Shown piece after piece: positions 414 to 18,513 of a stretch of DNA of 21,326 bases. This DNA is from a virus. Position numbers and translations under genes: made by a program. Numbering within the stretch: the first letter of the stretch is position 1; each line of letters opens with the position of its first letter. The notes under the pieces are model-generated. The model made no database searches. It was not told the origin of the DNA and saw nothing but the letters and a program-made list of their open reading frames with translations. The DNA is taken from IMG/VR virus record IMGVR_UViG_3300045996_000416, positions 1 to 21,326 of that record. One strand, 5' to 3'.

Positions 414-932
414 CTATAAACCGAGACATCTCCGAATTCTGAGCCAGTGTTGAATTCGATCGTCGATGCCGTTGTAACCACCATTCCAAATCCGGCACAG
501 GGAGCCGAACTTGTCCGCGTCGGCAAGTGGCGCAAGGTTCTTTGTCTTCCAGAACCATCCCGCTGAGCGCGCTGCCGGGATGGGTTGTTCAAGTAGATCG
601 GGATTGGACAGCAGGTCCAGACCTAGCGCCTGTCCGCAAGCCCGGTAGTTGTCTCGGCCGGTAATCTGCGGAAGACCTCGCCCTTTGAAGCGCCGGCCAT
701 CGCCGGGCTGCGTATTGCCGAGATCCTTGCGGCCCTCGTAAGCGTCGCCACTAGCGATCTCTTCAACGTAGCGGAGGCTGCCGGATTCGTGGGCAATGTT
801 GGCGAGGAAAGCGGCTTGTCTTTGCGGAGTGTTGATGTCGAACTCGCTCATCGTGATCGTTAGCGGTTCGGCATAGGTAGACGCGCGTGATGCCGCGTAA
901 GGCATCATCGCGGTCAGTTCCGCCGGTGTCAT
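414..932 (-). CDS. Phage endolysin, glycoside hydrolase family 19 (chitinase-like)
   Basis: The 172-residue protein is a compact single-domain GH19 lysozyme/chitinase-like enzyme that would cleave the glycan strands of peptidoglycan at lysis. Visible family signatures are AAFLANIAHESGSLRYVEE (residues 40-58), containing the catalytic glutamate Glu49 and a candidate second acid at Glu57 or Glu58, then FKGRGLPQITGRDNY (82-96) and RIWNGGYNGIDDR (147-159). There is no signal peptide or SAR-type N-terminal helix, so export should depend on the holin encoded next. A GGAGG motif lies 11 nt before the ATG, a rather long spacing. There is no separate peptidoglycan-binding domain, as is usual for phages of Gram-negative hosts. 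Confidence 0.93.
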   Translation of the reverse strand: MTPAELTAMMPYAASRASTYAEPLTITMSEFDINTPQRQAAFLANIAHESGSLRYVEEIASGDAYEGRKDLGNTQPGDGRRFKGRGLPQITGRDNYRACGQALGLDLLSNPDLLEQPIPAARSAGWFWKTKNLAPLADADKFGSLCRIWNGGYNGIDDRIQHWLRIRRCLGL

Positions 933-3374: not shown

Positions 3375-4055
3375 CTATCTCGTGCCAGCAAGAACGAATG
3401 AAATGTCAGCAAGCGTCGCGTCCGGAACAGTAGGCGCAACAACAGTCAGAACGTCTCCCACGTCGAAAACTGTCTCGGATGCCATGTCAAACGTGGCAGT
3501 TGTAGCGGCTGCAGCGAAGCTCATGGTTCCGACTGAAACGCCGTTCTGCTGGATGTCGAAGTCTGTCTCGGCAGTTGCGGCTACATCGGCCACACCTTGG
3601 GATGGCGAAAGGCCGGCAGCGAATGTCACTTCACGAGGGAATGCGTAGCGCAAGCACACCGCATCGGCATCTGGAACACCGGACACCATGGCTCCCACAT
3701 CATACGGTGACGCCCCTCCTCCTCCGCCTGGCTCCCAGTATCCCGAACTGCTTTCATCAAAGACGTACTCGCTGTCTCCAGGGATATAAGCACGCCAACC
3801 CGGCAGAGGTTGCAGGAACTGCCAACCTCCAGAGTAGTACGCCACCTCTTGAGCATGTCCAACCCATGCACCCGTCGGCGTGGCTCCCACCAAGTAGCGG
3901 TCGCCCTCGGCCGGTGATCCAGGTGGATCATTCTGATATCCGAGCGCCTGAATGTTGATCGCCGCTTCGAGCGCGCGAAACGCTGCATTGACGATGACCT
4001 CGGGCTGACTCTGTGCTGCCGCTAGCTCGTCAAGCTCAAGAATCGGTGTCGTCAT
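3375..4055 (-). CDS. DUF2793-like tail protein (fibre or tip appendage)
   Basis: The 226-residue protein has an N-terminal DUF2793-like module at residues 1-110, recognisable by [40 protein letters not shown] and [20 protein letters not shown] glycine linker (GGGGG) follows, then a C-terminal beta-rich domain of about 100 residues ([20 protein letters not shown] and on). DUF2793 proteins are found in tail-tip and fibre positions of phages and gene-transfer-agent-like clusters. Their biochemical role is not established. The gene is joined to the tail-tip hub by an ATGA overlap, which fits a protein that docks on that hub. The C-terminal domain could be the exposed, ligand-binding part. Confidence 0.8.
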
Positions 4056-7000
4056 ACTGTTGCTACCCCAGGCGTTCCGCGGCCTACGATCGCGGAAAGT
4101 TGATAGATGTGGACGGTTACCTCCGGCACGGGCGCACCGAAGTCAGTGGTTTGGTCGGCGGCGGTATAAACCACTGACGGCGTGGAACTCGTAAGCGTAC
4201 GCACGACGGTGACTTCGTCGAGAATGTCAATCGAGTACGACTCGTTCGCCTCGGAGTTGGGTATCTCCACCCCATCGCGCATTGTTTGGTGCAGCCGGTC
4301 GCGACGGATCCAGGTGATCGTTAGATCCTCCGAGAGATCGCGCTCACCGCGGACGTATACTGGCGAGAAGGTTTCCAGCGCCATGCCGGTACCCGTGAAT
4401 GGGTATGTCGTGGCAGCAGCAAGCGTGGAACCCATCGTCACGCCGCGGTATCGCATTTCGACGCCAATCTGCGCGGTACTGAGCGGCAGTCGCACGACGC
4501 CCGGGCCGCTTAACAGCACGAACCGGTCATTGATTTCGCTTGTCCCGACGATGTGCTCGGTGCCCCGACGCCCACGTAACAGCGTACTCAACCGCCAGCG
4601 GTTGGCGCTAATCTCTTCTGCATCTTGAAACTGGACGATTTCCCAGCGTCCATGGACACCGATTGCAGCAGTGTTAGCGCCGACTAACACATCCTCCTCA
4701 GTGCGGCTTTCGAACGCGGTAGCCGACCCTACAACCACATCAATCGAGTTCTCGTAGTCCCAGGTGCTAGTGATGCCAGAGGGCAACGCTGTGTTGATTC
4801 GACCAACCCTGGCTTCGTTTGCAACAGCGGCAACCTGCGTCCAGCTCGTGCCGCCGTCTGCACTCCGATAGATAATAGCCCCACCCCACGTGGTGCCAAT
4901 GCCAGAGCGTGCCGCCACTGCGTAGATGCCCGCATCGTCGTCCTCTTCTCGAAGCGCCGGTAGATCGAGCAGCAGCAACTCCGTGCTCGCAGGGAACGTG
5001 AGCCGATTAGGCTGGCGAAGCGGCGGTTGAGCAACGGCAGTAGACTCATAACTGCCATCGTCATCCCGTACCAGTTCGGCTCGGCGCAGAATGAGATCTG
5101 CGGTTTCGATAGATGCAATCCGCATGCGTTCGTTGCGGCCGTCCACCGGCACCACAATAGCGTCTGCGGGTTCGAGCTCAGAGCGGTATCGGTCGAGCGA
5201 AAGATCGTGTATCCAACGAGCTCGCCAAGCATCCGCCCAGACGATTTCAGCAATCTGTGCGGCCTGGTCATCGTCGAGCGCAGCTACCAAGTCGATGTCT
5301 AGATCGTTGACTGCGTCGGTGGTCAGTCGCGCCGGACTGATTTGCTCGCCCGGTTCATAGTCCCGGCTGGGCGCCAAGTAATGCACCCGCATCATGCGGG
5401 GAAGTTCTATGGACTGAACCTTTTTTGTGATCACTGCCGGTGGTCCATCTCCGTCACCTTCATGAGCCCCGAGTTCTTCGGCCTCAATCGTTGCAACAGA
5501 TTCCTTGCCACGCGTAGGCCATTTTAAGACCACGCCCGATTCGACGCAGTCGAAGAAACCAATCATTCGTAGTGGTTCGATACATGCACGACCACTCATA
5601 GGCCGAGTACGTGCATAGCCGTGAACGAACCGATTAGTTAGATCGGACACGTCGATGTCAGATTCTAGTAGGCCGCAGTCATTACAGACGTTTGTGACAA
5701 TCGTTGCGAGAGATACGTCGTCAGGTGACGGACTCCCAAACTCAAGCACGACCGGTGCGCGGGAACCTCCTGGGCCTAAGTTCGCTTCGAACGTGATGAG
5801 TCTATTTCCGCCACCATCAAAAACGCTTCCGCCTTCGAATGAGCCGATCTGCTCGTCCCATTCAATGTCGATATAGGTCCCGTCCCTCGTATCTAGATAT
5901 CTCGTGAATGAGACGATCGGCCACGCGAGCACATGGTTCTGGACGCGTCCCGCATTGAGGTTTTCGGTACTGCCAGGAAGCTGAGTCTCAATATTCCATA
6001 CCATATTCCCGGTATGTGGATCCCATTTTGCGAGACGCTCAGTGCTGGATCCCGCGGGCCCACCTAACATGCCAATTAACAGCGTGTCGTCCCAAAGGTC
6101 GTACAAAAATAGTTTGCACTGTACAAAGCGCGTCCAGGTGGGATCGAAGTCTATCGGGAAAACGGCTCCTACCGCCTCATGCTGAAATATCAAAGTCAAT
6201 AGGAAGGTATTGTAGTGACCGATGGCCCGACGCAACAGCGCGGGTTGGGAGGTTGTTGTGTCAGGATCAACGGCAATGGCGTATCCAGCCGCGCTGTTAA
6301 AAAACAGCGGATCTCTACCACCACATACTTTGCCCTCCGTATAACCGGCCCCAGGTGCCCAAAAGACACCGCCGCTCATCAACACGCCATCATAGGCAGA
6401 GAAGCTGACTCCAGCCTCAGATACTGCGAGGATCATGTCACCATATCCCGGGACATAGATCACAACTGCCTCGGCCCAGAAATCTGTGGATCCGCCCACG
6501 GGCCGCGAGGCATCCATCACCAACGTGTCTGGGTGGATTCTCGCGATGGCAACATTGTCATCCTCGGTGAACCAAGGAAAATAGATATGTCCGTTCCGGC
6601 CAGTTGCGATCGCGCCGTGAATCCATAACCCGCCGAGACTAAGCATTCCAGGCAAGGCGTCTTCGAATGTTTGCTGCCTGAGTTCGGTATTGTCAGATAT
6701 TCTGAACTCTCTGAAGCCCATCGTATCGCCAGCACTGTCTACAGTGATATAGCGCCCTCTCAGCCAGCTCGGCAAGACGACATTCGGATTGAAGCTATCG
6801 AATACGCTATCCGGTAACAGCGTCGGCTGGATGTAGTCCTGCTCGCTGGTACCGTCGAATATTTCAAATCTCCATTGTGGATGACGTCGCGCCTGCTCAT
6901 CAATCAACTGGCGCCTTGGAAAAATCACATATGCCAGTTCTCTGAAGGCTGGTACGTTTCCCACGCCCTCAAATGATTCAATGGTAGGGTCTGGCAACTG

Positions 7001-7531
7001 ATCAGACGTGCCCGTGTAGACTTCGAACTGGGCTCGGTAGACAAACGAGGCTGCAGTTCGCTCAGTGAAGTCGTCAATCGACTCATCGTCCTGTTGCTCA
7101 CGAACGTCGTAAACGAGCTTTCCGTTCTCCCAAATACGAAGTATTCCGCCGATCGGTCCATGAGTACTAGCGCGCAAGCCAACAGCGACGGGCTGGAAGT
7201 ATGTGAAGGTGGTGACCGATTGCTCCGGGCCTCCTCCTTTTCCTCCTAATTCTTCCGTGGTGGATACCTCCTCAATGGGACCTAACCAAATTACTGTCCC
7301 TGGAACGGCAATGGTTCCCCAGGTATCTGGCACTGGGTTTCCAACCTGCGCGCTCGTGGTCTGCAAGTCCTCCATCCGTGGGCCGATACTTGCTGGAAGC
7401 TGCCCCGGGAAGAGAACCGAACCCGCAAGCAGACCCAACTGGGCGCCATACATGGCGCCCGTAGGTCCGCCGACAATGTACCCAATGATACCGCCGATAA
7501 TGGCGGTACCAGCCTGTTCCCAATTGCTCAT
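4052..7531 (-). CDS. Tail-tip hub / central fibre protein (lambda J- and GTA-like) with beta-propeller-like insertion
   Basis: The 1159-residue protein is the largest in the window. Residues 7-40 are Gly/Ala-rich and hydrophobic. Residues 165-226 ([20 protein letters not shown], then [11 protein letters not shown]) and 604-690 ([40 protein letters not shown]) are the two halves of the conserved hub core of Phage-tail_3/GTA-type tail proteins. Residues about 865-920 hold a BNR-like strand ([15 protein letters not shown]). Residues 985-1159 form the conserved C-terminal region ([39 protein letters not shown]). Between the core halves lies a segment of about 370 residues with repeated beta motifs such as GHIYFPWF and [15 protein letters not shown]. 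The protein would cap the tail and contact the host. ATGA overlaps join it to both neighbours. Confidence 0.9.
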
Positions 7532-8031
7532 GCAGCACCACGAAAGCTGTGGTGCGGAGGCCCATCCCAGTCAAGACCGACACTCGTAATCGGCACTCCA
7601 TCGCGCCACTTCTGCAATGAGATGAAGGCACCTCCGCCGTCGTGAACGATCGCACCATGCGTTGCGCCAGCGGCTACTCCGACCATCATTCCCTGCGTTG
7701 ACAGCTTGTTCTCAAATACCTCCCGAGGAAACACCGAACGCCCTCGCACCCGGAAGTCAATCTGACCCGCAAGCATCACTTCGATTGAATCAACATTGGG
7801 GTGAGAGTGATCTGGGAATACTCCTGCGCTCGTGCCCATGAACAGTTCCGCTTGATAGCGGCCGGCTCGATACAGGACAACGCTGCTGACCTTGCTGCCT
7901 TGAGCTTCGAACTCGTATGTGGCACTTGCTGGAAGCATCCACGCTGATGGCGGTTGGGCCATAAACCATCGAGCGAACGCGGCCAGATTCCTGTGCCCAG
8001 AATCGTTGGTACAAGCCGCGTCAGTCGTCAC
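7528..8031 (-). CDS. Cupin-like protein A within the tail-tip gene cluster
   Basis: From GTG 8031, which overlaps the stop of the DUF2163 gene as GTGA, the product has 167 residues. A cupin motif 1 is visible at residues 75-89, HSHPNVDSIEVMLAG, giving His75, His77 and Glu84 as candidate metal ligands. A second-motif histidine follows in GVAAGATHGAIVH (His125 or His130). The C-terminus FISLQKWRDGVPITSVGLDW is shared with the second cupin-like protein at 9559-10011, so the two are paralogues. A metal-binding beta-barrel is likely, but no substrate is evident. ATGA links it to the hub gene. It may be a tail-tip subunit using a cupin fold or an enzyme acting on tail proteins or host glycans; neither can be chosen from sequence. 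Confidence 0.75.
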   Translation of the reverse strand: MTTDAACTNDSGHRNLAAFARWFMAQPPSAWMLPASATYEFEAQGSKVSSVVLYRAGRYQAELFMGTSAGVFPDHSHPNVDSIEVMLAGQIDFRVRGRSVFPREVFENKLSTQGMMVGVAAGATHGAIVHDGGGAFISLQKWRDGVPITSVGLDWDGPPHHSFRGAA

Positions 8032-8921
8032 GTTGGCCCACGCATGATCGCCAAGATGCCAGGGATGTAAACGCCGTAGCCGCGAAAATTGACGATGTTG
8101 TTGTGCACGTCTCGGCACGTGGAAAGCAACCGATTGCAAGCTGGAGGAAGATCTATCGTGTCCCCGATGACGGGGTCTTCCGGAAACTCTTCCCATGTCG
8201 TAATTGATAGAGTTGCGCCCGCAATCGTCACCCGCTTCGCCTCACGCGAGAAATCCAAGTTTGCTCCGGCAGTGAACGTCACTTTCGAACCATCGAAGTA
8301 GGTCGCTGTCGGCGGCGCTGCGCCGGCCGTAATCTCGACATCGAACCGCCGACGGCTGGTCACCGCCGTCACGATCGCTTGGCGCGTAGCAGCTGCTACG
8401 TTGAACCCGCAGCGGCTATCACCAAACTCCACAACATTGCAGCGCTCTGAATAGGTCCAGCCGATATTCTGGGACAGCCGCTGCGTCATTCCACGCACTT
8501 CGACTTTGTATCTGCCGTCTGAGTCTCGAGACGGTACTCCTAAGTACCCGCGCCTCTCAATCAACTGGCCCTGGTCCGGCGCGTTGTAGTTGACTCCAAA
8601 CACTTCGACCGGAGCATTGTCCAACAATCCCGCTTCGATCTCCGAGACGGTGATGTCAGGAATTTCGAATTGGTCCGAGAGAGCGCCGTCAACCTCCATG
8701 TTGTCCACGCTCATGTCGCTGGTGGAGCGCACATCGGAGCCCGTGATGTTTGATACTGATCGATAGCGCCCAGCGTAACGGCCCGACGCTATCTCAATAT
8801 CTTGGTCGTGATCCGTGGAACGGATTACTTCGCCATTCGCTTTCTCTATGGTCCAGCACAGCGCGAGCGTGGACACTTCGCCTCGCAAGTGTGCCAATAA
8901 CTCGGCTTCAATCGTCCTCAC
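8028..8921 (-). CDS. DUF2163 / BR0599-type tail-tip protein (lambda gpL / GTA hub-like)
   Basis: The 297-residue protein matches the DUF2163 plus Phage_BR0599 family that forms the hub ring below the distal tail protein in GTAs and related siphophages. Recognisable parts are LLAHLRGEVSTLALCWTIEK (residues 9-28), EIEAGLLDNAPVEVFGVNY (94-112) and the C-terminal GYGVYIPGILAI (281-292). Four conserved-looking cysteines, Cys161, Cys171, Cys262 and Cys269, are spaced C-x9-C and C-x6-C. This resembles the ligand pattern of the iron-sulphur cluster known in lambda gpL and GTA hub proteins. The GTG start at 8921 overlaps the DUF2460 stop as GTGA, and the 3' end overlaps the cupin-like gene in the same manner. 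Cluster binding is inferred. Confidence 0.88.
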   Translation of the reverse strand: MRTIEAELLAHLRGEVSTLALCWTIEKANGEVIRSTDHDQDIEIASGRYAGRYRSVSNITGSDVRSTSDMSVDNMEVDGALSDQFEIPDITVSEIEAGLLDNAPVEVFGVNYNAPDQGQLIERRGYLGVPSRDSDGRYKVEVRGMTQRLSQNIGWTYSERCNVVEFGDSRCGFNVAAATRQAIVTAVTSRRRFDVEITAGAAPPTATYFDGSKVTFTAGANLDFSREAKRVTIAGATLSITTWEEFPEDPVIGDTIDLPPACNRLLSTCRDVHNNIVNFRGYGVYIPGILAIMRGPT

Positions 8922-9559
8922 GTGCGCTGTACTCTGATCTCAGTGATCGAGAAATCACACTGCTGAATCTCACGACTCGCAATCGCCACGTCTAACAAGC
9001 TATCAAAGCGCGCATAAACGTAGAACTCACCTCCCCAACTAGTAGGAGTACCGACGAACGAGACTTCCGGAGTCAATATTCCGGTGGCCTCGTCCAACGT
9101 CCAGGCGGTATCTGGTTGCTCGACGCCGAGCTCATTGGCTATACGGATCGTGTCGCCCTTTGGCTTGTATATCTCTCGTACTTGTTCGAGAGCCCCGTAC
9201 GGATAGGTTTTAACCAGTTGATAACCGGAAGGACTGTCTTCCTCAAAGATAAAAGGCTGGTCCAGGGGCGTCGGCTGCTCGTGTGTTTTACAGCTCTTAT
9301 AATCGGCATGGTCCTTCAGGCGAAATCCCGTCGCCATGCCACCAACCGCATGCCAAAAGTAAAGTATCTCTTGGATGTCTTCCTCGGCCCTCGCCCCCAT
9401 CGGAACAGACACATATCGATGTAGCGGGCGGGACCATTTGCGTGTGCGTCGCTCGTAACCGCCCTCGCGCTCTATCACTTTGACCTTGTACCGAGGCCCG
9501 CTAGAGAAGCCGAACGATGGGCACCCAGGAAAGATCTCTGTGGTGTCTGGTATCAGCAT
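8918..9559 (-). CDS. DUF2460 distal tail protein (GTA ORFG12-like)
   Basis: The ATG at 9559 overlaps the stop of the upstream cupin-like gene as TGATG. This is a better start than the open frame extending to 9658, which lies inside that gene. The product has 213 residues. It carries DUF2460 features: an early PGCPSFGFSSGPRYKVKVIE, EEDIQEILYFWHAVGGMATG FRLKDHADY in the middle, FIFEEDSPSGYQLVKTYPYG, and a C-terminal WGGEFYVYARFDSLLDVAIA. The family forms the distal tail ring that connects tail tube and hub. Position directly before DUF2163 is the conserved order in GTAs and related siphophages. Confidence 0.88.
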   Translation of the reverse strand: MLIPDTTEIFPGCPSFGFSSGPRYKVKVIEREGGYERRTRKWSRPLHRYVSVPMGARAEEDIQEILYFWHAVGGMATGFRLKDHADYKSCKTHEQPTPLDQPFIFEEDSPSGYQLVKTYPYGALEQVREIYKPKGDTIRIANELGVEQPDTAWTLDEATGILTPEVSFVGTPTSWGGEFYVYARFDSLLDVAIASREIQQCDFSITEIRVQRT

Positions 9560-10011
9560 CAGCCTATCCGCACAGAACGGAGTTCGGGGTGTACTGTGCC
9601 GCGCCAGTCGAGCGCTATGCTCGTCGGCTCGATACCATTCAGCCATTGCTGAATACAAAGTATCGCGCTACCCGATTCCCCGACCGTCGCTCCATGATAG
9701 ACGCCGGCACCAACACGCCTCTTACCGCCGTAAGTACAGTCAACCACGCCACTGAGGGGCCCCAACTGGCCGTGGACAAACATATCGATCGAGTGCACGT
9801 TTGGGTGGCAGTGCTCAGGAACAACTGAGCCTACGCCCGGAGTCGGTGAGCAAAGGATGTACTCGATCTGAAACTGACCCTCTCGACAGAGAACCATCGT
9901 GTTGAACTCCACCGTCCCTAAGCGAAATGCGCGTAACGCGTCCGGCGGAGGTCTGAAGTCGGCGAATGACATTGAGAGCACGCGGCGGGCGAAACCACCA
10001 AAGTCGCTCAT
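9559..10011 (-). CDS. Cupin-like protein B within the tail-tip gene cluster
   Basis: The ATG at 10011 overlaps the stop of the NlpC/P60 gene as ATGA and is preferred over upstream in-frame ATGs that lie inside that gene. The product has 150 residues. HCHPNVHSIDMFVHG (residues 67-81) is a cupin motif 1 in which Asp76 replaces the usual glutamate. GVYHGATVG (103-111) supplies a second-motif histidine (His106). The ending ILCIQQWLNGIEPTSIALDW matches the end of cupin-like protein A closely, so the two arose by duplication. Unlike copy A it has several cysteines (42, 54, 68, 92, 119). No enzyme class can be assigned. Conserved location beside the distal tail genes suggests a tail-tip function. 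Confidence 0.72.
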   Translation of the reverse strand: MSDFGGFARRVLSMSFADFRPPPDALRAFRLGTVEFNTMVLCREGQFQIEYILCSPTPGVGSVVPEHCHPNVHSIDMFVHGQLGPLSGVVDCTYGGKRRVGAGVYHGATVGESGSAILCIQQWLNGIEPTSIALDWRGTVHPELRSVRIG

Positions 10012-10490
10012 GTGTAGAGCACTCCAGGAATCTTCCAGTATGAGTGAACCCATCGACTCCATGGCGCACGCAGACCGTGCTCCACCACCCCACACTGTTT
10101 TGCGTTGGCATGTATGACATAGCCGTCATACGTCGCAATCCCGTAGTGCCTTGGGTAGCTGTCGCCCTCGAACTTAAACAGCACCAAGCAGCCTGGGCAC
10201 GCCTTATTGATTTTCTCGCTATAGCGAGCAGTGAGTTCATGCAGGACCGGGCTTGCCGTGCGCGCGTACCCCGTCGGGGCCGGCTTCCCAAAGTAAGTTT
10301 CCAGACTATGCCCGGCAATTTTCGTCGCCAGATCTATGAATCCCGCGCAGTCAACACCCGAACTTGTTCGACCCTGATGACGCCACGGAATTCCCTTCAA
10401 CGAACGTGCCGCGGTAATCAGCTGATCGGCCGTAATGACGTGGTGCTTGGGACTCTGGTCGAGCGTTGGCGAGACGTGATGCGATGACAT
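10008..10490 (-). CDS. NlpC/P60 cysteine peptidase, tail assembly or tail-tip (lambda gpK-like)
   Basis: The 160-residue protein is a single NlpC/P60 domain. The catalytic cysteine is Cys48 in SSGVDCAGFIDLA, the catalytic histidine is His115 in YPRHYGIATY, and His127 in GYVIHAN is the probable third residue. These enzymes cut peptidoglycan stem peptides, or act during tail assembly, and are usually incorporated at the tail tip to help the DNA cross the cell wall. The gene starts at ATG 10490, overlapping the tape-measure stop as TGATG. In gene transfer agents the peptidase gene follows DUF2460 and DUF2163; here it precedes both. Confidence 0.9.
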   Translation of the reverse strand: MSSHHVSPTLDQSPKHHVITADQLITAARSLKGIPWRHQGRTSSGVDCAGFIDLATKIAGHSLETYFGKPAPTGYARTASPVLHELTARYSEKINKACPGCLVLFKFEGDSYPRHYGIATYDGYVIHANAKQCGVVEHGLRAPWSRWVHSYWKIPGVLYT

Positions 10491-12745
10491 CAGTTGTTAC
10501 GCCTGTGCGCTGATGCCATTCCTCGGGATGCGGCCGCTGCGATCTGCTGCTCTGTTCTACGACTCACGCGTTCGCCAGTCTCCGTGCGCACGCTGAAATT
10601 CTGATTCAGAACCATGCCGCCGCCCATGTTCGGCATCTTCGATAGCGGAATGATGTCGCCTCCAACACGAGGTCTAAAGAACTCAGGCTCTCTTTCGTTG
10701 ACTCGGTAATTCATGCCGGCCAGAACGGGACCACCGATTGCGCGGGCCCCGCCGAACCCGAGCGCACCGGCAGCCATGCCGATCCACCCAGTCCCGGTGC
10801 CCCCACCGGCTGCGCCGAAGAGTCGTTTCGCGATATCCGCTGCCACAGCCTGCGCAATGAGCTTCTTCAGCATCTCGCCGAATGATTTCAGCACTCCGTC
10901 CGCGCCCTGATCGAAGCCAGACACCAACGTATCTGCAATGATGTCCTGAGTGTTTCGTGCCGCCTGCTCCTGAAACACGGTGAGAGTCTCAAGCCCTTTA
11001 AGGAATCTGGCTTCGAAATCTGCTTCGAAAGCTTCGAGTCCTTGATCGAGGCTATCGCTGTTTTGGCTGGCGAATTCGGAGACAGCCTCGGCTGCACCAT
11101 TTGCTGCCTCAGTCATGATCTCCAGCTGCAACGTCAGGTCCAGCAACTTTTGCTTGAGCGCCTCGCCGTTCTCGCCTGCCAGCATAAATGCCGCGGCCAG
11201 ATCGCCGTGAGCAACTTGATATGCAAGGGCTGCCGTCTCACCCATTCCGAATGTCGCAATCTGCTGCTCCAGAGATTGCGTCATCTTCTCGATCTCTTCC
11301 GCAGCCTTCTTCTGCTCCTCGGCAGCCTTCTTTTGAGCATCTGCCGACTTGACGACCGCGTCGTAGCGACGGGCCAGCGAGAGCAACTGCTGTTGCTCCG
11401 ATTTGCTCAGCTCATCGAGCGCACCCGATTGGATCTGGTAGGCGATTTCGGCCGCTTTGCCGACCGAGCCATACAGCGCGATCTGTTCTCTGAGCTTTTC
11501 AGAGAGCTTCACGAACTCTTCTGATGGCTCCTTCGGAGTGCTCGAACCGCTATCGGAGCCAGCCCCTGCTGTCAGCAAAGGCGGGCGCGCGGCACCACGA
11601 TCATAGAATGCTTTAATCTGCTGCTCGATCTCTGCAATCGACCTATCTAAGTCCGCGTCCGAGTACCACTCGATGAATCCATTCTTGCCGAACACCCGGC
11701 CACGGTTCAGGAAGTCTGGGTGCAAGATTCCGAGCGACCGAAACTTTTGCATCTCGGCTAGCAGATCCTCCAGTCGCACGATGTCGTCAGCTGCCACACC
11801 GTTGAGGCGTGCCGCCGCAGACTCACCTACGAACTTTGCAACATTCCCAATCTCCGCTACAGCCCCTATCGATACAGCGGACAGCTTAATGATGCCACTG
11901 ACGAAACTTGCGAACCCCTGCTGGAACTCTGGATCACTAATTTGATCACTGAGCTTTGTAATTTCATCAACCAGCGGCGTCATGTTGACGTCGCCAATCG
12001 CCTGATTAATGTTGTTCTGCATTCGCGTGAATGCTTGTCCAACAGTCACCGGCATGGCCTGCGCCCGCTTCGACAGGTCTTCTGTGCCTTTCAGGAATGC
12101 CTCGAAGAATTCCTCGCTCGAGACCTTGCCTTTGAGCACTGCTTGGCGAAGCTTTCCGATGCTGCCGTCCATTCCTTCCATGTTGGCGGCGACAGTGCGC
12201 AGAATCTCCGGCGCACCTTCCATCATGCTGTTGAATTCTTCAGCGCGAACCGTGCCACCAGCAAGCGCCTGGGACAATTGCAGCAGTGCGCCGCTAGCCT
12301 GCTGAGCGCTCGCGCCGCTGACTGTCAGCGCGTTACCCACACCCTCCGTGAACTGCAAAAGCTCCTGCTGAGAGGCGCCCAGTTCTCGGCCGGACTGCGC
12401 GAGCTTGACGTATAGGTCCGCGACACCGGACATTTCGGTACGGGTTCGCTGAGCAATATTGAATAGCTCTGCCTGGACCTTCCCAAGTTCCTGTGTTCCC
12501 TCCGTAACCAGCGCCAAGCGTCCACGCAGCTGCGTGTATTGATCCGATATCCTGATGATCGACTGCACCGCCTGAACAGATGCGTATGCGCCCAAAGCAG
12601 CACCGATTCTCTGTCCGAGTCGATCAAAGGATCGTTGCATATCCCTTGAGCGACGTTCGGCGAGACGTGCGGCACGGCCAATATCAGTCTCGAACTTGCC
12701 CGTGCGCGCAAGAAGATCAATGAAAAGACTACCGAGACCGGCCAT
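10490..12745 (-). CDS. Tail tape measure protein
   Basis: The 751-residue, alpha-helical protein begins MAGLGSLFIDLLARTGKFET and continues with the tape-measure N-terminal domain (IRISDQYTQLRGRLALVTEG, EEFNSMMEGAPEILRTVAAN). A coiled-coil stretch includes the internal repeat KKAAEEQKKAAEEIEKM. The C-terminal part carries the lambda gpH-like block DGVLKSFGEMLKKLIAQAVA followed by a Gly-rich hydrophobic region (GMAAGALGFGGARAIGGPV) that may enter the host membrane. The protein sets tail length and is later ejected. By the usual 0.15 nm per residue the tail would be near 110 nm, an inference. It overlaps the second chaperone frame by 17 nt and the peptidase gene by 1 nt. Confidence 0.95.
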   Translation of the reverse strand: MAGLGSLFIDLLARTGKFETDIGRAARLAERRSRDMQRSFDRLGQRIGAALGAYASVQAVQSIIRISDQYTQLRGRLALVTEGTQELGKVQAELFNIAQRTRTEMSGVADLYVKLAQSGRELGASQQELLQFTEGVGNALTVSGASAQQASGALLQLSQALAGGTVRAEEFNSMMEGAPEILRTVAANMEGMDGSIGKLRQAVLKGKVSSEEFFEAFLKGTEDLSKRAQAMPVTVGQAFTRMQNNINQAIGDVNMTPLVDEITKLSDQISDPEFQQGFASFVSGIIKLSAVSIGAVAEIGNVAKFVGESAAARLNGVAADDIVRLEDLLAEMQKFRSLGILHPDFLNRGRVFGKNGFIEWYSDADLDRSIAEIEQQIKAFYDRGAARPPLLTAGAGSDSGSSTPKEPSEEFVKLSEKLREQIALYGSVGKAAEIAYQIQSGALDELSKSEQQQLLSLARRYDAVVKSADAQKKAAEEQKKAAEEIEKMTQSLEQQIATFGMGETAALAYQVAHGDLAAAFMLAGENGEALKQKLLDLTLQLEIMTEAANGAAEAVSEFASQNSDSLDQGLEAFEADFEARFLKGLETLTVFQEQAARNTQDIIADTLVSGFDQGADGVLKSFGEMLKKLIAQAVAADIAKRLFGAAGGGTGTGWIGMAAGALGFGGARAIGGPVLAGMNYRVNEREPEFFRPRVGGDIIPLSKMPNMGGGMVLNQNFSVRTETGERVSRRTEQQIAAAASRGMASAHRRNN

Positions 12746-15425: not shown

Positions 15426-15977
15426 TTAGGCCGCCATCCGACTGGTTCCCTGATTGAAGACAAGGCTTCGGGCGATCTCCAAGGACTCATCTAGTCCCCA
15501 GTCGTTCAGCAAACAGTTCACCGCGTACAGAACGACACGGCAATTGGCCTTTGTGTAACCACCGCCAGCCGTGATTCTGTCAACGCTTGGGGTCCGGCTA
15601 TTTCTTCGCCTGTTCTCTATCGAGAAATCAAATTGCAGTCCGGTAAGTTCACATTTGCCGCGCTTCAACTTCTCCGAGAGCCAACCTGCGTCTAGGTCGA
15701 AGTCCACACCTTCTCTCTTGCTCCTTTTCTTTATCGAGCAAACGAGTCTTGACGCTCTCCAATGAAGGTCGTTCTCGTAACGATCCCGTTGCTTCTGAAT
15801 CAGTGACGGACTTTCTCTGCGCTCCTTCTCATTAGACGCATGACACTTCTTGCACCAACCCGCCAGTTTCAAGCGCAAGCGAGATTTCTTTCTGCCTGGG
15901 GAAAACTGCTCATATGGCAAGTGCTGGTCGCACTTAGGGCAATACTTCAACTCTCTGCTCTCAATAGTAGAAGTCAT
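15426..15977 (-). CDS. HNH-type endonuclease with N-terminal zinc ribbon
   Basis: From ATG 15977 the product has 183 residues (a GTG at 16004 would add 9). The N-terminus has a zinc ribbon, Cys13-x2-Cys16 (YCPKC) and Cys42-x2-Cys45 (WCKKC), as in many phage HNH proteins. The nuclease core near residues 107-160 contains GKCELTGLQFDF, TPSVDRITAGGGYTKANCRV and VLYAVNCLLNDWG. This is the HNH-related subfamily in which D-R-I replaces the first H-H. It overlaps the glycosyltransferase stop by 17 nt. It looks AT-richer than its neighbours by eye and is probably a free-standing homing endonuclease. A role in DNA packaging is less likely this far from the terminase. Confidence 0.82.
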   Translation of the reverse strand: MTSTIESRELKYCPKCDQHLPYEQFSPGRKKSRLRLKLAGWCKKCHASNEKERRESPSLIQKQRDRYENDLHWRASRLVCSIKKRSKREGVDFDLDAGWLSEKLKRGKCELTGLQFDFSIENRRRNSRTPSVDRITAGGGYTKANCRVVLYAVNCLLNDWGLDESLEIARSLVFNQGTSRMAA

Positions 15978-16680
15978 GTATCCATGGGGAGGCTTGTAAC
16001 GCACTATAACACCAAGGATCAGGTTTGCCGTGAAACATCACGACGCGAGCGCCCTTGGGAAGCTTGCTCTGGTACTGCTTCACGCAGTGGTCTCGATACG
16101 AATAGACGCCATGTTTCGGGCCCCAGCCCGCGAGCTTCTTACGCATGACGTAGTAGAGCCACGATTGATCGCTGCCCTTCATGCGGCCATCTTGGGTCGC
16201 GAGCCGCGGCGACTTCACCGGATCAAAGGTGTCCCATATCTCGGTGTGCGCGCCCGCGGTGGCCATGATCATCGACGCACAGTGCGTGATCATTGGATTG
16301 CCGGTCTCCCACATCAAAAATGGCTCTTCGCGATGGAAGATCGGCGTCAGATCATCGGTAATCACAACGTCAAGGTCCATCAGCACCATTCGCGTGCCCG
16401 GCCCGATCAACTGCGCGAACCAATCCGAATGAACCTTCAACCGCCGGTAACAGCTCGGACCCGTCGGCCACGAAGGATTAGGGATCGCTGCATAGTCGTC
16501 CCACAGCGGGATGTGTTCGACCTCGGGATCCAGCCCGGTCGCATCGTCCGTTACGCAGATGAAGCGGAACGGATGCGGATAGTGACGAGCCACCATGCGC
16601 CGAAGCGTGTTGACATGGACCGGTAGGAACGTGCTGCGGTAGCCAGGCTTCGACCACTTGAAGGTTATGACGGCGATCAT
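15961..16680 (-). CDS. GT-A type glycosyltransferase-like protein with DxD motif
   Basis: The ATG at 16680 overlaps the glycerophosphodiesterase stop as ATGA and is preferred over the upstream in-frame start at 16794. The 239-residue protein opens MIAVITFKWSKPGYRSTFLP, has FRFICVTDDATGLDPEVEHI (38-57) and RMVLMDLDVVITDDLTPIF (97-115). Asp102-x-Asp104 is the metal/nucleotide-sugar DxD of GT-A enzymes, most like GT8-type folds. SDQSWLYYVM in the second half and the terminal FHGKPDPWCYSALQASPW with its histidine also fit GT8-like enzymes. It would transfer a sugar from a nucleotide-sugar donor. The acceptor is unknown: virion protein, host envelope glycan or a small molecule. No membrane segment is present. 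Confidence 0.8.
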   Translation of the reverse strand: MIAVITFKWSKPGYRSTFLPVHVNTLRRMVARHYPHPFRFICVTDDATGLDPEVEHIPLWDDYAAIPNPSWPTGPSCYRRLKVHSDWFAQLIGPGTRMVLMDLDVVITDDLTPIFHREEPFLMWETGNPMITHCASMIMATAGAHTEIWDTFDPVKSPRLATQDGRMKGSDQSWLYYVMRKKLAGWGPKHGVYSYRDHCVKQYQSKLPKGARVVMFHGKPDPWCYSALQASPWIHDFYY

Positions 16681-17324
16681 TGCATCAACTGCCGGACACG
16701 CATCGTTTCCAGCAGGTGCACTCCGTACCCCATCAGGCGCGCCGCCATGGTCCTGTCGGCGACTTCGTATGAGACCCAGAGGAATCCGGGCCACACGGGG
16801 CCCGTGACGTGCCTCTGGTCTATAAACACGTACTCAGGTTTGTGCACATCACAGTGCGCTCGGCTCGCTGGGCTCATGTCGGGTAGGACGAAGCCAATCC
16901 GGAAGCCTTTGGCTCGAGCAAGCAACGCCGCGTCCTGATCGAATGAGATAATCACGCACTGATCGGCCGGGCAGATTTCACAAACACGATCCACCACGGT
17001 GCGCGCGCCGAACTTGGTCACGCCGTCCCGCTTGATCTCGACGAACGCCGTCGCCTCCCCCAGCACTGCAATCCCTTCCGCCAAGGTCTCGACACCAAGT
17101 GCCTTCAACCCTTGTGCGCTCGTATCGAACGAATCCCGGTCCTTGCCGTACATCCGGAGCAAACAAGCGTCGTGCATAAGCACCGGAACCATATCGCTCG
17201 ACATCTGCACGTCGAACTCGACGAACCGAGCGCCGAGCTCAACGGCTGAGCGGATAGCGGCGACTGAGTTCTCTCTATGCTCCATGGCATTGCCGCGGTG
17301 AGCGACGATTCGGTCTCTCAGCAC
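16677..17324 (-). CDS. Glycerophosphodiester phosphodiesterase-like enzyme (GDPD)
   Basis: From GTG 17324, which overlaps the previous stop as GTGCTGA, the product has 215 residues. An ATG at 17357 is an alternative start. The GDPD TIM-barrel signature is intact: RIVAHRGNAMEHRENS (catalytic His9, Arg10), FVEFDVQ (Glu36, Asp38) and PVLMHD (second catalytic His51), then AFVEIKRDG and CVIISFDQDAALLARA. The enzyme class hydrolyses glycerophosphodiesters to glycerol-3-phosphate and an alcohol. No signal peptide is present, so it should act in the cytoplasm. It is coupled to a glycosyltransferase downstream and to a membrane protein upstream. A substrate such as phospholipid head groups or glycerophosphate-decorated glycan is inference. 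Confidence 0.87.
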   Translation of the reverse strand: MLRDRIVAHRGNAMEHRENSVAAIRSAVELGARFVEFDVQMSSDMVPVLMHDACLLRMYGKDRDSFDTSAQGLKALGVETLAEGIAVLGEATAFVEIKRDGVTKFGARTVVDRVCEICPADQCVIISFDQDAALLARAKGFRIGFVLPDMSPASRAHCDVHKPEYVFIDQRHVTGPVWPGFLWVSYEVADRTMAARLMGYGVHLLETMRVRQLMQ

Positions 17325-17638
17325 GGGTAGAGAACTTCGCGCGCACGGTGCTCGCATCGATAGACTTCGACGCAGTGATTCGGCTCCCAGAAGTAAATCC
17401 GGTCTGCCAGCGCGCCCATCAGTAGGCCAGCGATCCGCTTCCATCCACGCTCCGTCGAAATCCAGCGGCCCAGCAGCCCTGAAATGGTTTCGCGAGGCAA
17501 TGCCCATGGAAGAAACGCGATGGCGCAAAGAGCCATGTTGATCACTATGTATAAGACAAAAACGCGCGCAAGGAACCGACTCCACAGCGGGCGACGTGCC
17601 GCGATTTGATCGGCGACTGCTAGTGCTTCTTCTGCCAC
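17318..17638 (-). CDS. Small membrane protein of the enzyme island
   Basis: Starting at GTG 17638 the product has 106 residues. It has a helical N-terminus (MAEEALAVADQIAARRPLWS), one clear transmembrane segment at about residues 27-48 (VFVLYIVINMALCAIAFLPW), a possible amphipathic or re-entrant segment at 70-80 (IAGLLMGALAD), and a Cys/His-containing C-terminus (FWEPNHCVEVYRCEHR). The two cysteines and nearby histidines could bind a metal, which is speculative. It overlaps the ATP-grasp gene by 19 nt upstream and the GDPD gene by 7 nt downstream. It may tether the enzymes encoded beside it to the membrane. I do not recognise a named family. Confidence 0.7.
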   Translation of the reverse strand: MAEEALAVADQIAARRPLWSRFLARVFVLYIVINMALCAIAFLPWALPRETISGLLGRWISTERGWKRIAGLLMGALADRIYFWEPNHCVEVYRCEHRAREVLYPC

Positions 17639-18513
17639 GTTCCAGCCTCAAGTTCGTCCATCATCAGATCAAACATTTCTATCCAGCGCCGCTTTGTCCC
17701 GAAGAATGGCGCTTCGTTACATTTGCCCGGAGACGGCCAGGGCCATGCCAAGCTTGTTTCGAGCAATCGCCACGAATCACCGTCCTGCAGAACATCGATC
17801 GCACACCAATTCGTGCCAGCGACCTCAAGAAACTTATTGGAAAAGTCCAGTAGCGACTCAACCTGCGGCGTCACAGTCGTCACCGGCTCGACATTGCCGG
17901 TCTGAGCAACGGAGCGATCCGGGTAGCAATACCGTCGGAAGGCCGCTCGCTTCGTTCCAACTGCGTTCACTCGCCACGTCACCATGTGGGGAATGAACTT
18001 TTGCAGCAGCGCGTACCCCTTCTGCATCGATCGCGCTTTGCCAGAGCAGTGATTGACCTCAACGCCAGCGCCAAATAGTGACGCCACGTGAGCGATCGCT
18101 TGGTATTTGTCCCGCAGGATACGGACGTTCACCGAGCTCGCTCCGACATCCGCTTTGGACACCACCGGATATGGAGCCGATGACTCACAAAAAGCGAGCG
18201 CCTCGTCGCGATCAGTGAATCGCCAAGTCGGAGGCATCCATTCGGACCACCGTTCGAACTGTGCGCTCTTGTTTTCGTACAGCCTGACCTGCGCTTCGTC
18301 CTGAATCATCGTCAGGCGAGCAGCCATCAGGTCGTAGTCGCGCTGATTTTTCTTCAACTCGGCGGGATCGGCATGCGGTCGGATGAAGCCGACGCCGTCA
18401 GAATCAGCTTCCTCGCCGCGGAAGATTCGCTTTGGCGAGTAACCGCGGGCCTTTGCCGATTTGATGATGGCCGCATGCCATACATCTCTTGTGTCAAGAA
18501 CGTAGAACTTCAC
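17620..18513 (-). CDS. ATP-grasp superfamily ligase-like protein
   Basis: The 297-residue product (GTG start at 18513) has ATP-grasp order: an N-terminal Rossmann-like part (MKFYVLDTRDVWHAAIIKSA), then the ATP-binding lysine strand and glycine-rich loop YPVVSKADVGASSVNVRIL (residues 115-133; Lys120), QKFIPHMVTWRVNAVG (171-186), and the metal-binding end with Asp240 (NWCAIDVLQDG) and Glu252 (WRLLETSLAWPWPSPGK). ATP-grasp ligases join a carboxylate to an amine or thiol through an acyl-phosphate. The usual E-x-N of the last strand reads E-T-S here, so either a lineage-specific variant or reduced metal binding is possible. It overlaps its upstream neighbour by 20 nt. Confidence 0.8.
   Translation of the reverse strand: MKFYVLDTRDVWHAAIIKSAKARGYSPKRIFRGEEADSDGVGFIRPHADPAELKKNQRDYDLMAARLTMIQDEAQVRLYENKSAQFERWSEWMPPTWRFTDRDEALAFCESSAPYPVVSKADVGASSVNVRILRDKYQAIAHVASLFGAGVEVNHCSGKARSMQKGYALLQKFIPHMVTWRVNAVGTKRAAFRRYCYPDRSVAQTGNVEPVTTVTPQVESLLDFSNKFLEVAGTNWCAIDVLQDGDSWRLLETSLAWPWPSPGKCNEAPFFGTKRRWIEMFDLMMDELEAGTWQKKH

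Follow-up and report, generated by a model that had tools for sequence, protein, structure and literature searches.

Two paralogous cupins among the distal tail genes of an IMG/VR virus belong to an apparently undescribed, almost purely viral family with a likely functional metal-binding pocket

Two small cupin-like genes, here called cupin A and cupin B, stand on either side of the distal tail genes DUF2460 and DUF2163 in the IMG/VR virus record IMGVR_UViG_3300045996_000416, of which the whole stretch analysed (positions 1 to 21,326; hereafter the window) covers 21,326 nucleotides. The two proteins are paralogues, and the family of small single-domain cupins to which they belong is almost purely viral and apparently undescribed. 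Both likely retain an intact and functional metal-binding pocket, and we lean, with modest confidence, towards their being an accessory enzyme rather than a structural subunit of the tail tip.

Cupins A and B align with 30% identity over 154 aa (BLASTP, E 2e-21), the H-x-H motif of A (H75-x-H77) is aligned by its counterpart in B, and both proteins end in the common C-terminus T-S-[VI]-x-[LI]-D-W-x-G. These observations bear out the proposal, made in an earlier note on this DNA from its letters alone, that the two descend from one gene. Both genes are under purifying selection, with nonsynonymous to synonymous substitution ratios of 0.083 for cupin A against its counterpart in a related record, L002, and 0.128 for cupin B against that in another, L007. 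They also differ from each other: beyond the H-x-H hairpin cupin B is shorter by a segment of roughly 15 residues, and its combination of Asp at the position of E84 with Cys at that of S138 is found in type B alone. The N-terminus of cupin A is about 12 residues longer than that of its L002 counterpart.

No match of either protein to Pfam, PHROGs or NCBIfam passed the threshold, and a phmmer search of PDB with A alone returned chance matches only. An AF2 model of A, built from a 13-row alignment, is a barrel (predicted local distance difference test score 88, predicted template modelling score 0.83) whose best Foldseek matches in PDB are the small cupins KdgF, TM1459 and RmlC-like proteins (best E 7e-6), and VIA-align gave Z values of 10-12 to cupins. 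Cupin A is thus predicted to adopt the double-stranded beta-helix small barrel of the cupin superfamily, and the fold is assigned to B by homology; the fold and the intact H-x-H in both copies, as the earlier note had supposed, are supported by the model for A and by the alignment for B. The likeness to KdgF, TM1459 and RmlC-like cupins lies in predicted fold, size and the H-x-H metal hairpin, whereas identity in the aligned structures is 9-19% and the spacing after H-x-H is different; neither A nor B has a KdgF-type sequence-family match in Pfam, PHROGs or NCBIfam, so this similarity is structural only. A further likely family member is BFVD entry D6PF24 (200 aa; template modelling score 0.71 normalised to the query, 33% identity).

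Cupin motif 1 is G(X)5HXH(X)3-4E(X)6G, from the exact spacing of which many divergent cupins depart, and motif 2 is G(X)5PXG(X)2H(X)3N. The residues of motif 1 are present in A at another spacing, G70-x4-H75-x-H77-x6-E84-x4-G89. At motif 2 the family consensus is R-V-x-P-x-x-x-H-G-G, in which the His is present, the Pro stands at H-4 rather than H-5 and there is no Asn. Across 71 dereplicated family members, over which pocket conservation was counted, H75, H77 and Q60 are found in 71/71, and H125, Q140 and W142 in 70/70. Position 84 is Glu in 68/71, Asp in two (both type B) and Val in one. Since three His, two Gln and one Trp are invariant, a working pocket is likely, and it is probably that of an enzyme; the three invariant His also agree with the earlier suggestion of a metal site.

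Two proposals for the chemistry narrow the enzyme reading further. According to one, the proteins would be oxygenases resembling the thiol dioxygenases PCO and ADO (PF07847), which would use iron held by three His to oxidise a side chain, that of cysteine or of another residue, in a host or phage protein. Indeed, a 70-member profile searched against PDB returned plant cysteine oxidase 2 first (E 0.0025) and then PCO4/5 and ADO, which are the nearest solved relatives by profile; weak PCO_ADO matches occur in 43/70 members (best 9.5e-6), and the spacing of the HxHP...G hairpin is identical. The invariant H75, H77 and H125 would provide the three-His ligand set, which in ADO consists of His112, His114 and His193 (PMC8503633). 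However, the printed scores all lie below the Pfam gathering cut-off of 27 bits (22.5 bits for the member in L018, 11.5 for window A, no match for window B), the match spans only about 50 residues, and the near-invariant Glu and Ser of the phage family differ from the PCO/ADO sequences: PCO2 has Ser at the strand position of the Glu, and ADO has Asp206 at H+13, where the phage proteins have Ser. The phage family also has its own C-terminus, W-L-N-G-x-x-P-T-S-V...D-W, and we regard this form as very unlikely. According to the other, a receptor sugar enzyme or lectin of KdgF-, isomerase- or lyase-like type would act on surface or cell-wall sugars, alone or together with the NlpC/P60 peptidase. 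KdgF and D-lyxose isomerases are among the best Foldseek matches, VIA-align places phosphomannose isomerases high, and the cupin seems to be exchanged together with the peptidase as a single cassette, but the structural matches are generic cupins at 8-19% identity, the nearest solved proteins by sequence are the thiol dioxygenases, no adhesin domain was recognised, and the majority of relatives are not beside a peptidase, which leaves this form quite unlikely.

The family has at least 179 relatives in IMG/VR. Seven member queries against 50,697 GenBank phages gave no significant match and no isolate carrying the family; tblastn matches in Acidovorax phage ACF1, Thalassomonas phage BA3 and Vibrio phage 166E36-1 (E 0.2-0.8) are at chance level and were set aside because their surroundings are unrelated or they fall within a large protein. 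A plasmid search for the family found none, and PHROGs holds no family for any of 70 members. Similarly, a literature search returned nothing on this cupin family: the phage cupins that it turned up were enzymes of jumbo cyanophages, of sugar-isomerase or hydroxylase type, and the host Cellulophaga encodes a cupin-like protein that may be a demethylase. Among bacteria, a clear member was present in 1/385 genomes of the class of L018, with two more weak partial matches (E 5e-5 and 7e-4), and in 1/292 genomes of the phylum of L017, the sole clear member in each taxon being the genome that seeded the search. The family is therefore no common bacterial gene. In the clearest cellular member, at 5878-8394 of L018, an alphaproteobacterial metagenome-assembled genome (MAG), the cupin adjoins a TPR-sulfotransferase protein; at 683-1637 of L017, a Cyanobium MAG contig, it follows a short open reading frame (ORF) that appears to resemble a Nif11-type peptide precursor. 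An isolated 39-aa piece in a gammaproteobacterial MAG (L019, 5974-6138) matches the C-terminal part of cupin A at 67% identity and is possibly a gene remnant.

Neighbourhoods outside the tail lineage, labelled with PHROGs models and neighbour clustering, are diverse. For example, family members lie between terminase and portal (TerL-cupin-portal), between portal and scaffold in a T7-like arrangement, after the scaffold, beside a head protease/major capsid protein gene, after a primase and near an amidoligase. Of 65 dereplicated loci of the family, 35 have a recognised virion or packaging gene within two genes; 27 had no label in this count, and further scans of the genes around them turned up packaging as well as replication genes. 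Among close relatives of one portal, the cupin is present in 4/69 assessable loci, and it is an optional accessory gene. Tandem pairs occur in L040 (5992-6937), L050 (5572-6517) and L097 (5986-6652); those of L040 and L050 directly follow DNA primase, and their two copies fall in different family clades.

Within the tail lineage, the relatives of which were gathered by DUF2163 and large-tail-protein searches, otherwise colinear operons carry zero, one or two cupins. Two are found in L007, in tandem between peptidase and large tail protein in the order peptidase-B-A. The search for single-cupin relatives that the earlier note had recommended yielded L002, L020, L022, L035, L195, L197 and L200, and L008 has a cupin B at its contig end. 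No cupin lies between DUF2163 and the large tail protein in L010, L011, L013, L016, L192, L194, L196, L198, L201 or L202, L193 gave no cupin match, and four records without a cupin at the tail site have none elsewhere in the whole record. Ten of the 11 tail cupins form one clade (100/98) within which types A and B split, and an approximately unbiased test did not reject a single clade of window A, window B, the L002 cupin and both L007 copies (p 0.24); the cupin of L022, outside that clade, marks a second entry into the tail lineage. In L020, a transposable-phage-like contig, the ORF directly downstream of the cupin (6934-7563) appears to resemble an HslV/Ntn-hydrolase.

These distributions bear on the idea that A and B are tail-tip subunits, that is, structural or chaperone components bound to DUF2460, DUF2163 or the large tail protein, in which the metal would stabilise the fold. 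That they lie translationally coupled within the distal tail operon is consistent with it, as is the Fe-S metal centre of the hub of the Rhodobacter capsulatus gene transfer agent (RcGTA; PMC7296036). In every cupin-bearing GTA-like relative, moreover, a cupin directly adjoins the tail peptidase, preceding it in L022, L035 and L195. This adjacency is suggestive of a functional link, and weak evidence for one because both gaps of the interval from DUF2163 to the large protein touch the peptidase. The cupin is absent, however, from several relatives with 63-65% identical large tail proteins and so is not shared by all members of the lineage, as a core GTA-like tail-tip component would be; the available portion of the RcGTA report describes baseplate proteins without a cupin (PMC7296036), whereas the window has two. 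The invariant interior-type Gln and His suggest chemistry, and the role as a tail-tip subunit offered in the earlier note is further weakened by the occurrence of the same family in unrelated phages between terminase and portal, between portal and scaffold, and near primase. We consider it unlikely.

Several points weigh against the accessory enzyme that we favour. Strict conservation of the pocket equally fits a metal-stabilised ligand-binding or structural cupin, the canonical cupin motif spacing is off by one or two residues, the 35/65 loci beside virion genes would also fit a virion protein, and the window's gene order was seen in one contig only. The pattern search preferred members with H-x-H and could have inflated that count; H-x-H is kept by 31/74 sequences outside the search pattern, H125, Q60, Q140 and E84 are part of neither pattern, and the cupins of L195, L197 and L200, found via the large tail protein and not via the cupin motif, keep every pocket residue.

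The arrangement of the window can be compared with its closest relatives. All genes of the tail segment are on the minus strand, in the 5' to 3' order TMP (tape measure protein), NlpC/P60 peptidase, cupin B, DUF2460, DUF2163, cupin A and large tail protein (Table 1). All segment junctions are stop/start overlaps of 1 or 4 nt: ATGA (4 nt) for peptidase/cupin B, TGATG (1 nt) for cupin B/DUF2460, GTGA (4 nt) for both DUF2460/DUF2163 and DUF2163/cupin A, and ATGA (4 nt) for cupin A/large tail protein. The flanking cupin ORFs, their 1-4 nt overlaps and the gene order are thus as the earlier note had given them, except that the protein it named the hub is the megatron homologue. In RcGTA (PMC7296036) the hub is DUF2163, the distal tail protein is DUF2460, and the module g12 (DUF2460), g13 (DUF2163), g14 (peptidase) and g15 (megatron) is the same gene set as in the window. 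Most relatives have the order TMP-g12-g13-g14-g15, whereas the window has its peptidase upstream of DUF2460; this peptidase is the only one, and none directly precedes cupin A.

Table 1. Tail-segment features of the window
Feature	Coordinates	Strand	Details
Large tail protein	4052..7531	-	RcGTA megatron (Rcc01698) type; Rcc01698_C domain; the earlier note's 'hub'
Cupin A	7528..8031	-	167 aa, starts with GTG; H75, H77 and H125, possibly also E84, predicted to bind metal; Q60, Q140 and W142 conserved in the pocket
DUF2163	8028..8921	-	RcGTA hub type: Phage_phiJL001_Gp84_N + Phage_BR0599; lies between DUF2460 and cupin A
DUF2460	8918..9559	-	Of the type of the RcGTA distal tail protein; lies between cupin B and DUF2163
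CTGATG stop/start word	9557..9562	-	Cupin B/DUF2460 junction; putative downstream border of inserted cassette
Cupin B	9559..10011	-	150 aa, ATG start; three His, both Gln and Trp kept; Asp at E84, Cys at S138
NlpC/P60 peptidase	10008..10490	-	Upstream half of putative peptidase-cupin B cassette; extra N-terminal residues at new junction
CTGATG stop/start word	10488..10493	-	TMP/peptidase junction; putative upstream border of inserted cassette
TMP	10490..12745	-	Here followed by the peptidase-cupin B cassette; in close relatives DUF2460 is directly next

The sequences of this segment resemble different relatives. The window peptidase is 76% identical to that of L007 and 44% to that of L002, and cupin B is 73% identical to its L007 counterpart, whereas cupin A is 79% identical to the L002 cupin and 48% to that of L007. 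The TMP/DUF2460 junction reads AACTGATGCTGAT in both L002 and L007; in the window the peptidase-cupin B pair is flanked by AACTGATG and GGCTGATGCTGAT, with CTGATG at both borders. The window DUF2163 keeps its GTGA end, now common to cupin A, whose roughly 12 additional N-terminal residues stand where L002 has the peptidase. In the simplest reading of these sequences, the donor was L007-like and the recipient L002-like: an old duplication would have given rise to the second copy, type B, a peptidase-cupin B cassette would have joined the L002-like operon between TMP and DUF2460 at CTGATG words, and the old peptidase formerly preceding cupin A would then have been lost. Cassette insertion and peptidase loss would account for the interleaved order, rather than a design for two assembly steps. 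The earlier proposal that one copy was set ahead of each of two tail-tip steps does not fit the relatives, since the L007 copies are in tandem, L002 has one and several others have none. That the contig instead joins two phages by an assembly artefact, so that the interleaved order is unreal, might be suspected from the presence of the peptidase-cupin B pair upstream of DUF2460 in the window contig only and from the different nearest relatives of A and B; yet the two new junctions are exact stop/start overlaps that stay in frame, only one peptidase is present, G+C varies little across the segment genes (0.54-0.58), and A and B occur in tandem in L007 anyway. We consider an artefact highly improbable.

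Other features of the window were observed as well. DUF2163 has Cys161, Cys171, Cys262 and Cys269, all conserved in L002 too, which resemble the four Cys ligands of the Fe-S cluster in the RcGTA hub (PMC7296036). In the structural module, upstream of the tail genes, ORF 16677-17651 (minus strand) has a significant partial match to glycerophosphodiester phosphodiesterase (GDPD; 70/244 model positions, E 7e-21); its overlapping neighbour, ORF 15961-16794, has no family match. ORF 414-932 (minus strand) matches Glyco_hydro_19 (chitinase class I, E 6e-11) and is probably an endolysin.

As an accessory enzyme, each cupin would bind one metal ion via H75, H77 and H125, perhaps with E84, and would be co-produced with the virion proteins, acting on some small molecule or on the side chain of a protein. 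The gene would travel with the NlpC/P60 peptidase in GTA-like tail operons, and the changed pocket of type B (E84D, S138C and the lost segment) would probably reflect a shifted substrate or a regulatory role. A broader and rather unlikely extension would have a widespread, undescribed family of cupin-fold metalloenzymes, carried in exchangeable late-operon cassettes, chemically modify some target shared by many virions or hosts; one copy in GTA-like phages would be dedicated to the tail peptidase and the pocket-altered paralogue would control or complement it. The data point to a conserved viral family with an apparent active site that is undescribed in Pfam, PHROGs and NCBIfam and not seen among the GenBank phages searched, and one tail lineage offers natural comparisons between zero, one and two copies. 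They also suggest that genes can move inside a packed operon at stop/start overlap words with translational coupling kept. If the enzyme reading is true, two small proteins could reveal a new late phage function by a simple biochemical screen.

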